From positions 1-51,930 of the forward strand of contig CAMUGE010000021.1 of the NCBI GenBank assembly GCA_947088345.1: a stretch of 51,930 nt of DNA. Direction: 5' to 3'. Numbering within the stretch: position 1 is the stretch's first letter; every line of letters starts with the position of its first letter. The stretch comes from an uncultured Roseburia sp. (GTDB lineage Bacteria > Bacillota > Clostridia > Lachnospirales > Lachnospiraceae). Of the stretch, positions 1,313-47,245 are shown piece after piece. A program made the translations under genes and the position numbers. The notes under the pieces were generated by a model that ran no database searches, was not told the origin of the DNA, and saw nothing but the letters and a program-made list of their open reading frames with translations.

Positions 1313-1573
1313 ATGCCGCGGCTTCCCCGCGGCTCTTATCCGGGCGCAGAATCCAGCCCCATTCCTGGCATGTGTCCGGGCATTCTCCGGTATGAGACTT
1401 AGAATTTCTTAGCGCGCAAACCTGTTTCGCGTCAGCGCCTTTGCTGCGAGCTTTAGAGTTCTTCTCACGCGAACTCCCATACGCCCGCTTTGGCGGGCAT
1501 ACAAATCAGGATTGTGAAATTTTTAATTTCACGCTGCATTCCTGTCAGGATCGTGAACTTTCTGATTTCACGC
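1313..1573 (+). repeat. Structured intergenic repeat, locus 1
   Basis: Degenerate copy of the family described in the findings. A GC hairpin (GCCGCGG 1315-1321 with CCGCGGC 1327-1333) is followed by the main element at 1391-1470. Its outer arms are TGAGA 1393-1397 and TCTCA 1463-1467, with the inner CCTGTTTCGCG motif at 1421-1431. A GCCCGC/GCGGGC hairpin (1483-1498) follows, then two short palindromes of the form GTGAA...TTTCAC (about 1513-1533 and 1552-1572), the last of which touches the stop codon of the next gene. It fills the space between hom and the ACT gene. Confidence 0.75.
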
Positions 1574-2016
1574 TATTCGCTGCCCAGTATTTTCACATAA
1601 TGAATACCGTCCTGCTCCTCTATATGAGCAACCATTTCCTCAATATCCCCGGTCTGCGGCAAAACATCAATGCTAAGCGTCAGGGATGCGATGCCGTTAA
1701 TCGGGATGCTCTGATGAATTGTTAAAATATTTGCATGAACCTCTGCAACTGTCTTTAACACGACAGAGAGCAGGCCGGGTTTATCGTCCAGCTGAATCAC
1801 CATTGTGATTGTTTTGCCTTTCGCCGTCTCGTGAAACGGAAAAATATCGTCTTTGTATTTATAAAAAGAACTTCTGCTGATTCCCATTTTCTCGGCAGCC
1901 TCCTGCACCGAAGCTGTTTTTCCGGAATCCAGCAGCCTTTTAGCCTCTACAACCCTTAACAAAACATCCGGAACCGCTCTTTCTTTTAATACAAAATAAC
2001 GTCCTTTTTCCTGCAT
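1573..2016 (-). CDS. pheB: ACT domain protein, PheB/UPF0735 type
   Basis: A 147-aa protein with an N-terminal helix-turn-helix-like segment (about residues 36-60, SVQEAAEKMGISRSSFYKY) and a C-terminal ACT domain (about residues 68-145, starting TITMVIQLDDKPGLL). This is the layout of the PheB/UPF0735 family, whose members are often found beside hom or aromatic amino acid genes. ACT domains bind amino acids, so a sensor or regulator of the aspartate-family pathway is likely; the ligand is not known from sequence. It precedes hom on the same strand. The start at 2016 has AAAGGA about ten bases upstream. Confidence 0.85.
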   Translation of the reverse strand: MQEKGRYFVLKERAVPDVLLRVVEAKRLLDSGKTASVQEAAEKMGISRSSFYKYKDDIFPFHETAKGKTITMVIQLDDKPGLLSVVLKTVAEVHANILTIHQSIPINGIASLTLSIDVLPQTGDIEEMVAHIEEQDGIHYVKILGSE

Positions 2017-2131
2017 ACATTTTCAGTCCTTTCATCTCTCCGCTGTCTTTGGGACGCTTACAACTGTTTTCACGAAAAAGATCATAACACAAAGAGGCTG
2101 CTGCCGCAACCTCTTTTCCCAAAATTCAATT

Positions 2132-2971
2132 TCAAAATTTCCTGCTTCCGCCGCCATGACTGCGTCCACTGCTGCTATGGTGCGTTTTACTTCGCGCGCC
2201 GCCTCCGTTTGAAGAAGCGCCCCCGCTCGAAGTCTGTATCCTGTGATGGCTGATATGCTGACCGATCAGATTATTTTCATTTCTTCTAAGACGCAGACTT
2301 CCAAATTGATGGGCGTCGTACCCAGAGACGCCAAATTTAAGCCGATAACTTCCTATGATCGACAAAAAGACAATCACCCCGACCATACAGGCAACAAAAC
2401 CTGCGATCAACGCTTCCGCCAATGTAATCTGCCGATACCTGGAAACCTCCCCGGTCTGCTCATCATAGTTATACTGCCCCTTTGGGATTCCCTCCTCATA
2501 AGCACTGCAAAGACCCGTCAACATTTGAAGAAAACAGTCTTTGTATGCGCCGTCACTGACATAATCATATGCCTGATCCAATGTCCGCTCAATTCTTTGG
2601 TCCGTCATATAACGAGTGGCGGCTCCGCAGGTAGAAATTGTGATTTCACGGTTATCAAGATCAATCAACAGCGCCGCTCCATCCTCCTGGTCTGCAGAAT
2701 GCCTGTCAAAAAAATCGTCTGCGTACTGCCTGGCTGTCTTTCCTCCCGTATGATCGGTTGTAACTGCAAAGACGTTCCATCCCGATTCCTCCATGAACGC
2801 GGAGAGTCTTCCGTCCAACTCGGCAATTTCTTCTTCCGTTAAAATATTTGCATCATCATAGACTGTTCCGATTTGCGCTGCCAGAATCGGCGCAATGTAA
2901 TATACAATCAAAAACAGCGCAGCCAAAATACCGGCTGCTGCTTTTTTTTGATCTGAACGACATTTCACCAT
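2132..2971 (-). CDS. ydjH: TPM-domain membrane protein, YdjH-like
   Basis: A 279-aa protein: N-terminal membrane segment (about residues 13-33), an extracytoplasmic TPM domain (about 38-185, beginning around VYDDANILTEEE), a second membrane helix near 205-232, and a Gly/Ser/His-rich tail ending in GGGSRKF, a form seen in many TPM proteins. Start at 2971 is set by AGGAGG eight bases upstream; it overlaps the end of the preceding zinc-ribbon gene by 7 bp, suggesting translational coupling. Order and domain content match Bacillus subtilis ydjI/ydjG/ydjH, whose products form a membrane complex linked to PspA. Function here is inferred from that match. Confidence 0.8.
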   Translation of the reverse strand: MVKCRSDQKKAAAGILAALFLIVYYIAPILAAQIGTVYDDANILTEEEIAELDGRLSAFMEESGWNVFAVTTDHTGGKTARQYADDFFDRHSADQEDGAALLIDLDNREITISTCGAATRYMTDQRIERTLDQAYDYVSDGAYKDCFLQMLTGLCSAYEEGIPKGQYNYDEQTGEVSRYRQITLAEALIAGFVACMVGVIVFLSIIGSYRLKFGVSGYDAHQFGSLRLRRNENNLIGQHISHHRIQTSSGGASSNGGGARSKTHHSSSGRSHGGGSRKF

Positions 2972-4008
2972 AAATAATATCCTCCTGCCAGACCGATTGC
3001 AAAAACTGCCAGCGCGGAAAGAATGCTTGCCAGCAATACTTTCCCATAGTGGATCGGCAGTTTCCCGCACACTTTTCCTGTCTGGGCATTCATGGAATAA
3101 TAATAGACGTTATTTTCCGCTGCTTTGTATGTAATCGTCCAGACCGGAAAAAGAGCATATCTGAATTTCTCATCCGTCTCGCGAAACACAGCATTTTGCA
3201 CCGTGACAGAACTGTATCCCGTAATAGTATCTGCCATCAGCGTTTTTGCATGATGTTTCATTGTATTTCGCGCATCTGACTGCATTTCTTCCTGTTCCAC
3301 ATCACGCCGCTCGGCCAAAAATCCGGACAGATATCCCATTCGAAACGGCTTCATCGTCTCAAACCGATACGGCAAAATCCCCTGCGCCAACACGGCGTTC
3401 GCTTTCTTTAACGCATTTACGGAAAAATTTTTCAGCGTAACCTGCCCTTCGCGCAAAATTCGATACTGTTTTGTCTCCGTATACTGCACATTCCCGGAGC
3501 GCCAGCTGCGTATGTTTTTTGCTTCTCCCTGGACGCTTCCGTCATAGGTAACATCATACAGCCAATATGGGAAATATACGCCGGAAATGCTCTCGATCTG
3601 CTCCTTGTTCCAAAAAGCGCGCGGGACGAACTTCTTCTTTTTTACATAGTCAAGAAATCCCTCCACCGCTTTTTCTTTTGTAATTTCAAACGGGATAACA
3701 AGATCCGGCAGATACCGGCCCTCCAGCCGGCCGCCTAATACGACGGGATTGTGACAGTAGTAACAAAATGTCGCGGCCGTCGTACTGTCGGTGACAATCT
3801 GCGCACCGCAGGACGGACAATGATAGACAACTGCGTCATCCTGTTCACGCTCACTTTGCCCGCCCTCCTGCGCCTGTTCCTGTCCCATGTCGTCTAACTG
3901 CCGCTGTGTAAAATAAGAGATACAATATTCGCATTTATATTGCTGCGACGCAGGATCAAACAGCAATTCGCCGTCACAATTCGGACATTTGTAACTGATC
4001 GACGCCAT
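2965..4008 (-). CDS. ydjG: Zinc-ribbon membrane protein, YdjG-like
   Basis: A 347-aa protein with two TFIIB-like zinc ribbons at the N-terminus (CPNC at 8-11 with CEYC near 26-29; CPSC near 64-67 with CYYC near 82-85), a central soluble region and one C-terminal membrane helix in the last 25 residues. This is the architecture of YdjG, which recruits partners to the membrane. AGGAGG lies just upstream of the 4008 start, 14 bp after the stop of the SPFH gene; its 3' end overlaps the TPM gene. It probably acts as the membrane anchor of the three-protein set. No DNA-binding role is implied by the zinc ribbons. Confidence 0.8.
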   Translation of the reverse strand: MASISYKCPNCDGELLFDPASQQYKCEYCISYFTQRQLDDMGQEQAQEGGQSEREQDDAVVYHCPSCGAQIVTDSTTAATFCYYCHNPVVLGGRLEGRYLPDLVIPFEITKEKAVEGFLDYVKKKKFVPRAFWNKEQIESISGVYFPYWLYDVTYDGSVQGEAKNIRSWRSGNVQYTETKQYRILREGQVTLKNFSVNALKKANAVLAQGILPYRFETMKPFRMGYLSGFLAERRDVEQEEMQSDARNTMKHHAKTLMADTITGYSSVTVQNAVFRETDEKFRYALFPVWTITYKAAENNVYYYSMNAQTGKVCGKLPIHYGKVLLASILSALAVFAIGLAGGYYLW

Positions 4009-46128: not shown

Positions 46129-46157
46129 AGTTATAATCGCCTTTCTCTTAATTTCTG

Positions 46158-47021
46158 TCAGTCACAATCCACCCACAAAAGATGTTTTCCACAGTGAACG
46201 CACCGGAACAGATACCCCTGGACGCTGCCGCCGTTGACCAGATCCTTTAATAATTCTTCCGGCTCCTCTCCCCAGTCGCTCCAGACAGAATCCTCCAATA
46301 CCTCATCCGCAATGCCCAAATGTTTTAATTCACGGTATCCTGCATATCCGATAAAAGCACAGTAGTCACCGCAGTGGGCACGCCAGTACTCCTGCTGCCA
46401 CCCCTGGTAGCCCGGAGTACGATGAATCAATTCATCCAGCCGATTCTGATCGTCTACACCGTCCTCAAGCGAATACTCGTCCTGAAACGCTCCGTCAAAC
46501 TTTTCGGCCGCCCTGCCGTTTGCAATACACTCCGGACACAGACAGCTGATATTCTCCACTGCGAAAAATGGTCCGTTATAATAAACGGAAACCGATTTCC
46601 CACAGCACTCACAGGTTTTCGGCGGATCGGCCAGAAGAAATGCCTCTGTTTCCAGTGGGTTGGGGTGATATCGAAAAAATGGCAGCTGCGTCAGCAGCGC
46701 CGCCTGCCTGCTCCTGTCCTTTCCGCCTGCAGGACGATGCAGCGCAAACCTGTCTCCGCTCCACGCCATGTCTTTAAGCTTTGCCAGCCGCCGCTGCGCT
46801 TTCTTGTCTGTCCGCACAACCAATGAGCGCAGTGTCTCAAATGCACTGCGATACAGCCCCAGCGTCTCACATACATCGGTCAGTACCCATTTGGCCTCGG
46901 ACGTATCCTGCGCCTCCAGAAAATCCTTAAATTCATAAAGCGCCGCAACACTGTCCACATCATCTTCGGATTGTTCCAATTCCCTTTTTAATTCCATGAA
47001 TTTCAGTTGGTAGTCATTCAC
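46158..47021 (-). CDS. CbrC-family protein with N-terminal extension
   Basis: A 287-aa protein. Residues from about 105 on match the CbrC/UPF0167 family: [62 protein letters not shown] and a final CVHCG zinc-type motif. E. coli CbrC is linked to colicin E2 tolerance, with unknown mechanism. The first about 100 residues form a helical extension not usual in CbrC. I start at GTG 47021, eight bases after GGGGG; the TTG at 47048 is less likely. It is followed by the DUF5713 gene. Confidence 0.8.
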
Positions 47022-47080
47022 AGGCCGGTCCCCCTTTCTCTCTGTCAAAACAAGCCATACTATTTCTAATACGCTCCTCC

Positions 47081-47245
47081 CATGTCGCGGCTCTGCCGCG
47101 ACTCAAATCTGCGCGGAGAATCCAACGCCATACATGGCGTGTTTTTGGGGATTCTCTGGTGTGAGACTTAGAACTTCTTAGCGCGCGAACCTGTTTCGCG
47201 TTAGCGCCTCTGCTGCGAGTGATTAGAAGTACTTCTCAAACGAAC
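47081..47245 (+). repeat. Structured intergenic repeat, locus 7
   Basis: GC hairpin GTCGCGGC/GCCGCGAC (47084-47102), then a GAGAATCC/GGGGATTCTC hairpin (47116-47156) that holds an extra inner hairpin ACGCC-ATACA-TGGCGT, then a subtype-A element at 47159-47241 with AGAACTTCT/AGAAGTACT arms and the inner GCGAACCTGTTTCGCG. It lies upstream of the CbrC-like gene. Confidence 0.85.

Follow-up and report, generated by a model that had tools for sequence, protein, structure and literature searches.

A family of structured intergenic repeats in Lachnospiraceae closely tied to stop codons

The window analysed here, the whole 51,930-nt stretch of contig CAMUGE010000021.1 from an uncultured Roseburia sp. 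(assembly GCA_947088345.1), carries twelve core copies of a structured repeat. An earlier note on this DNA had described them as a structured intergenic family with compensatory subtypes; that description stands, and the sense strand, the stop codons and the orientation to genes had escaped it. Our data identify a new family, of a kind already known, that is well supported and linked unusually closely to stop codons. We regard it as probably a non-autonomous palindromic repeat family of Lachnospiraceae, abundant gut bacteria, that resembles the repetitive extragenic palindromic (REP) sequences and acts in the mRNA of the upstream gene; its function in mRNA and its mode of spread are what we infer.

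Anatomy and copy number

The sense strand of the element is opposite to the strand on which the window was read, and the sequence set out in the earlier note is the antisense strand. In its own sense, a unit opens with TAG and runs TAG-YGTGAGA-AGAACTTCT-(small inner hairpins)-AGAAGTTCT-AAG bulge-TCTCACRC. This core, 69-86 nt long, is usually followed by a hairpin (HP2), GATTTGAG, a third hairpin (HP1) and CATGGRGGT, after which TAG comes again. Units are spaced 122-153 nt apart, and neighbours within 350 nt stand head-to-tail in 45 pairs and inverted in none.

A covariance model recovers all twelve window copies, which lie at the seven loci first described, or at six if the copy at 43160 joins the neighbouring array. 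With up to 2 mismatches allowed, the core hairpin GCGAACCTGTTTCGCG is found seven times in the window, where 0.07 would be expected; with up to 1 mismatch, the window's genome (G000; 3.05 Mb, 80 contigs, 90.5% complete) has 54 occurrences and a reversed-pattern control none. The model matches G000 91 times, one of these being a same-place match on the second strand, which leaves about 90 places.

Co-varying stems

The stems co-vary, and they do so in sequences outside the training of the model. Two subtypes, A and B, had been proposed in which both arms change, and columns 7/87, 12/82, 19/78 and 24/73 do switch on both arms together. The evidence available to the earlier note was thin, since covariation in G000 rests on few subtypes and its pair counts stay at the level of shuffles: further pair types numbered 24 against 25, and RNAalifold on the near-identical G000 copies gave only 12 pairs. 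Cells changed on both sides numbered 109 against 48 in shuffles. From the alignment of G000 copies (A1), 7 of 57 distinct sequences had been left out beforehand, namely the coding look-alike L012:3429 and six truncated or odd copies (two from the window, one from L009, two from L038 and one from L039).

A second alignment (A2) holds 117 rows, 105 of them distinct and none from G000, found by a model trained on G000 only; nine wrong-strand or doubtful duplicates and the loci L248 and L251 are among these rows. Across all 117 rows, 29 of 31 pairs changed on both sides (15 in shuffles), as did 248 cells (65 in shuffles), and 94.6% of cells were paired, against 32-47% when the structure was slid, in an alignment that had been fitted to the structure and whose seed pattern fixed part of one arm and favoured the short form. 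Removal of those 11 rows, together with identical ones, left 95 rows for a tree-aware test, in which 69 same-branch co-changes fell at paired columns where 14.2 were expected and the largest count among 2000 nulls was 28. The pair is preserved in 60 of the 69. Taken singly, 11 of 24 tested pairs have p 0.011 or lower, and several stem pairs hardly vary and are uninformative. Thus the larger-alignment covariation that the earlier note had set as its own test was found. The inner GCGAACC hairpin is absent from nearly all rows of A2, a set whose seed pattern itself selected the short form; matches found in relatives without the short-form pattern, in the search of 299 genomes described below, are mostly 61-71 nt.

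Folding on the reader's strand, compared with shuffles, gave z values of -5.3 for a full-length A copy, -6.9 for a full-length B copy and -2.1 for the A-prime form, and the sense and antisense strands fold about equally well. The three-way junction proposed for the unit is the lowest-energy structure predicted for the full-length B copy of L010, whichever strand is folded; the full-length A copy adopts a different fold. The linked hairpin also holds across the wider set: a perfect stem of at least 6 bp stands right after the core in 174 of 235 units, with 84 distinct stems, against 21 in shuffled sequence that preserves single-base content only.

Orientation to genes

Among 194 arrays, 172 have both flanking genes called after removal of the two doubtful loci, L248 and L251. 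These counts took in 90 of the 91 matches of G000, 25 of 41 of the sister genome G032, and 7 of 10, 8 of 10 and 7 of 10 of G004, G020 and G023, and they exclude L089, second-strand duplicates and the loci entered twice from G004, G020 and G032 (L130, L153, L171, L188, L192, L199). In 141 of the 172, the array lies between genes running in the sense direction of the unit; 5 lie between genes of the opposite direction, 12 in convergent gaps and the rest in divergent gaps. Hence arrays in co-directional gaps follow the gene direction in 141 of 146 (p 1e-35). A replication-strand explanation was also considered; both flanking genes were on the sense strand, yet opposite to the local majority, in only five cases, a number too small for a verdict, in a table that still contained wrong-strand duplicates.

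Departures from pairing placed on the tree include 37 sense-strand G.U against 14 reader-strand G.T, with the inner stems partly omitted. This excess, like the orientation to genes and the stop codons, points to the transcript, and it bears on whether the element functions only as DNA, as a protein-binding palindrome, a cruciform or a recombination site with no RNA role. A palindromic DNA site should likewise show Watson-Crick compensation, and the two strands fold about equally well; on the balance of these observations, we consider a role confined to DNA unlikely.

Stop codons and the far end of the unit

Counting upstream stops within 300 nt, the TAG of the element is itself the stop codon of the upstream gene in 38 of 133 co-directional arrays. 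From 309 control gaps, random use of TA would place 9.9% in a stop codon, and 38 therefore represents an excess (p 1e-9). The stop lies at -25 to +3 nt of the element start in 88 of the 133. Exact coincidence and the -25 to +3 interval, respectively, account for 9 and 9 of 14 arrays in G032, 2 and 6 of 6 in G004, 0 and 5 of 6 in G020, 1 and 5 of 5 in G023, 13 and 40 of 50 in the named set, and 3 and 8 of 11 in the other genomes of the family.

Within the window, one array supplies a stop codon: CTA at 35181-35183, the end of the copy at 35115..35183, is the TAG of the OAD_gamma gene at 35181-35906 (-). Of 60 genus genomes, 57 have a match to this gene, and the best 30 of the 57 were compared. 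All 30 retain the C-terminus VVRSI[RHN]R, two of them with one residue more, and the element begins exactly at the stop in 3 of these 30, from G000, G032 and G370, the last being distant (OAD_gamma protein 55-57% identical). In L270 and L272, half a core lies further downstream, and no unit was seen by eye in the remaining loci of the 30. Other hairpins stand at the OAD_gamma stop in L274 (G368) and L275 (G019), GCATGAAAATC..GATTTTCATGC and GAAGTTTGC..GCAAACTTC, respectively; the presence of other hairpin families there in other species indicates that the junction has been occupied repeatedly.

At the far end, some units finish in GGRGG-TTAG or TTGG-N-ATG and so would supply the Shine-Dalgarno sequence of the next gene (e.g. 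L013, L015, L029, L035, L101, L135, L260). This claim is limited to a subset, because start codons were picked by best Shine-Dalgarno match, a choice that favours such a reading, and because the distance from unit end to next start varies widely. A micro-ORF (open reading frame) within the unit was considered and dropped, as its frame shifts among length variants by eye. A bolder and rather unlikely proposal would make the unit a portable stop-to-start RNA cassette, with a stop in its first three bases (and TGA in another frame), insulating co-varying hairpins and a far-end Shine-Dalgarno-like GGRGG for the next gene, inserted precisely and in one orientation at gene junctions by neither a RAYT nor a DDE enzyme. 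If it were true, such a cassette would rewrite whole intercistronic regions while harming neither protein.

The position beside stop codons would also suit a family of intrinsic transcription terminators spread by copying, as would HP2 variants such as AAAAACGCC..GGCGTTTTT, which are A/T-rich at their ends. Between 32000 and 48500 of the window, 22 terminator-like calls were made in all, against 16.0 in shuffles; none coincides with the three arrays of this interval in the sense direction, and one, on the other strand, falls in an HP2 variant at 47125. By eye, CCGCA and not a T run comes after many of the HP2 stems, and one array stands between OAD_gamma and a same-strand biotin_lipoyl gene. 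A terminator role is therefore quite improbable: the scan of these three arrays gave no GC stem with a T run in the sense direction.

Gain, loss and mobilisation

Whole units have been gained or lost between sister species, and the compared sites do not fix an insertion rule. Shared stretches of G000 and G032 are mostly 84-95% identical. Six sites hold units in G000 but not in G032 (L074, L075, L076, L014, and window 5275 and 24475), and one holds them in G032 but not in G000 (L097 site 2). At least seven compared sites are occupied in both, often by different subtypes or numbers of units. The family is thus dynamic. L097 site 2 fits a clean insertion at TA, and window 24475 is compatible with one; window 5275 and L014 show no simple TA site, the remaining sites are less clear, and three empty sites retain a TAGTGTGA-like piece, as if units had been lost between short repeats.

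These sites bear on whether the element is a TA-targeting miniature inverted-repeat transposable element (MITE) moved by an IS630/Tc1-type transposase, with TA duplicated and the G of the element completing TAG; RUP, ERIC and Correia have been described as TA-targeting MITEs. A TA lies ahead of the palindrome in 52 of 65 first elements with a stop at least 4 nt upstream (some of which may follow missed modules) and in 29 of 40 internal units, and L097 site 2 and window 24475 agree with such insertion. Against it, the unit ends read GYGTGAG.. and ..CATGGRGGT by eye instead of forming terminal inverted repeats, orientation is fixed in 141 of the 146 co-directional gaps, and the TAGTGTGA-like pieces and the two sites without a simple TA do not conform. 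DDE_3 (PF13358) was found in 3 of 14 draft genomes and in neither G000 nor G032, in a search for that one Pfam family. We therefore hold a MITE origin to be unlikely.

The bulged palindrome, the TAG foot, the extragenic place 3' to genes and the TAG given as a stop codon would suit true REPs, mobilised by a Y1 transposase (RAYT/TnpA-REP) acting on the hairpin in single-stranded form. Of 20 draft genomes searched, 10 have Y1 genes. No Y1_Tnp (PF01797) was found in the drafts G000, G032, G119, G255 and G332, in a search whose E. coli control was positive, and the 36 loci fetched (30 of the 45 Y1 matches and 6 of DDE_3) carry no element in the roughly 3 kb around each. Most elements have the TAG, but depending on class only 13-25% have G in front of it, unlike a GTAG/GTGG foot; the core is longer than that of REPs, and neighbours are head-to-tail by 45 to 0. 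Hence we judge true REPs very improbable. The search for a mobiliser covered the Y1 and DDE_3 families, in draft genomes that can miss genes.

A Shine-Dalgarno-like insertion target was also considered. Where TAG is the stop, G is enriched ahead of the element (0.43 against 0.28 in controls), but GGAGG-like matches reach 24% against 17%; at elements at least 4 nt from the stop they reach 43%, against 12% near other TAs, in a class that contains units following undetected modules. Such a target is not claimed.

Distribution

Beyond G000, the search set out in the earlier note, with a covariance model run over this genome and its relatives, was carried through. Among 60 genomes, the family is present in 8 of 36 of the same genus (G000 included), and none of the 24 genomes from other families of the same order matches the model. 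Within Lachnospiraceae, at least 14 of 299 genomes match at E 0.001 or better, again with G000 included; this is a lower bound because the filters were strict and only 15 candidates were scored per genome. A scan of named genomes for the short-form pattern gave at least 115 matching stretches. Among the 80 stretches listed, we count 46 assemblies, labelled Lachnospiraceae, Roseburia, Parablautia, one Ruminococcus sp. and one uncultured bacterium.

A known RNA family was rejected as an explanation. The match to a known Rfam family that the earlier note had named as a refutation did not appear: none in the window reached the gathering score, and a permissive scan of seven loci gave no match over any element. 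The nearest is a sub-threshold match to n00280 in L063 (E 0.14), which lies beside the element and not over it.

Copies and neighbouring features in the window

All copies lie on the - strand, strands being given here as the sense strand of the element and the reader's strand being the opposite (+). The first core, A-like and full length at 1388..1472 (80.6 bits), aligns with a copy in G032. A full-length core at 5430..5516 (73.7 bits) is followed by an HP1 hairpin at 5566..5582, identified by sequence as TCGCGGC-TCT-GCCGCGA with flanks CATG and CTCAAATC on the reader's strand, of a type that recurs across many arrays. Next to it are an HP2 hairpin, GAGAATCCCC-TGTTTTT-GGGGATTCTC at 5597..5623 (direct-repeat family D13 and folding), and a short-form A core at 5624..5692 (64.4 bits), which starts 8 nt past the stop codon of the release-factor gene at 5701-6720 (-). 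This gene, by the array at 5624-5720, has PCRF and RF-1 domains and may encode RF1 or RF2; UAG is read by release factor 1, and the juxtaposition with a repeat family that supplies UAG stops is likely coincidence.

A full-length subtype B core at 24592..24677 (101.1 bits) is missing in G032. The OAD_gamma array comprises a degenerate core at 34845..34956 (42.9 bits), a full-length subtype B core at 34993..35078 (104.6 bits) and the short-form A core at 35115..35183 (55.0 bits) that ends the gene. At 42621..43022 is a tandem array of three 134-nt units (repeat family D5; two units 100% identical, the third 83%), with short B cores at 42655..42723, 42789..42857 and 42923..42991 (61.0 bits each) and HP2 hairpins, GAAAAACGCC-TGTTTTT-GGCGTTTTTC, at 42629..42655, 42763-42789 and 42897-42923 (family D13 and folding). 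A large serine recombinase gene at 40943-42541 (Resolvase, Recombinase, DUF4368) adjoins these triplicated units. A core with one arm lost lies at 43160..43242 (55.3 bits), and the last, A-like and full length at 47157..47243 (89.0 bits), is adjoined at 47130..47156 by a portion of a longer HP2 variant (family D13 and sequence).

Extra hairpin modules that the model did not catch are present in the arrays at window 1473-1567 and in L010, L014, L026 and L040; they consist of GCGTGAAATTAAAAATTTCAC and, towards the downstream gene, a nested module with GGCGATTTGTGTCTGCGCGC. Elsewhere in the window, an SPFH/Band-7 gene at 4023-5360 (-) contains three 75-nt tandem repeats at 4039-4263, and a long ORF at 16372-20934 (1520 aa) has a 9-nt-period repeat tract at 17340-17769 (repeat families D1 and D2). 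No tRNA or tmRNA was found in the window.

Discussion

Taken together, the co-varying stems, the fixed orientation and the stop codons argue for the reading that we favour, a REP-like palindromic family acting in the message of the upstream gene. The unit would be co-transcribed with that gene, and its hairpins would form directly behind the terminating ribosome. There they may form a barrier that separates the cistrons and that protects the 3' end of the upstream message or fixes its position. At some sites, the GGRGG end of the unit would serve as the Shine-Dalgarno sequence of the next gene. The units would owe their spread to an enzyme that was not detected in either of the two genomes richest in copies.

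Several points weigh against this reading. Co-transcription and action as RNA are inferred. The stop codon is not abutted in 45 of the 133 co-directional arrays, and the tie is weaker in G000 itself, with coincidence in 10 of 41 and the -25 to +3 interval in 15 of 41; 14 of the 172 arrays lie in divergent gaps. The genes were called by our own codon-score finder, and the orientation and stop statistics count related sites as independent. In G000 alone, pairs changed on both sides numbered 6 against 5.7 in shuffles, and the shuffles used for the stems behind the core matched them in single-base content only. Finally, strand-biased mutation could add to, or yield, the 37:14 excess of G.U.

The family offers a natural test of how structures right behind a stop codon affect messages, and of how repeats spread when no transposase is visible. 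We found no description of REP-like repeats in Lachnospiraceae in the open-access literature.

The supposition that no described family resembles this one does not survive comparison with the GTAG-REPs, which share compensatory sub-families, a 3' intergenic place and donation of TAG (PMC3733652). That paper reports that REP termini frequently supply neighbouring ORFs with a TAG stop, that uni-REPs are found near the 3' end of the ORF upstream, and that families comprise sub-families in which the complementary stems take alternative forms (PMC3733652). Like the present family, they are imperfect, tagged palindromes, present in many copies, extragenic, between unidirectional or convergent genes and near the upstream 3' end (PMC3733652). 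The present family differs in its foot (TTAG-like instead of GTAG), its core (69-86 nt against 20-40 bp in REPs), its extra hairpin modules and head-to-tail arrays, and in that no Y1 transposase was found in its two richest genomes, G000 and G032. The host group also differs, as "Firmicutes" and "Clostridi" have no occurrence in the main text of the GTAG-REP paper (PMC3733652). Single-strand transposases and REP feet are treated in PMC6006769.

ERIC/IRU elements are likewise intercistronic with TA at their ends, and the co-transcription and orientation-dependent effect on upstream mRNA reported for ERIC provide the best precedent for the action proposed here (PMC2229807). Compared by description, ERIC differs in its short terminal inverted repeats and its length of 127 bp (PMC2229807). 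Pneumococcal BOX is modular, with a variable number of middle modules, and SPRITE lies near gene 3' ends with co-option proposed, both like the present family (PMC3049150). BOX, RUP and SPRITE lie on the leading strand in 61-63% of cases, in keeping with the coding bias, and are enriched in convergent gaps (PMC3049150), whereas the present family follows the genes in 141 of 146 arrays, with 141 of 172 co-directional in that orientation.

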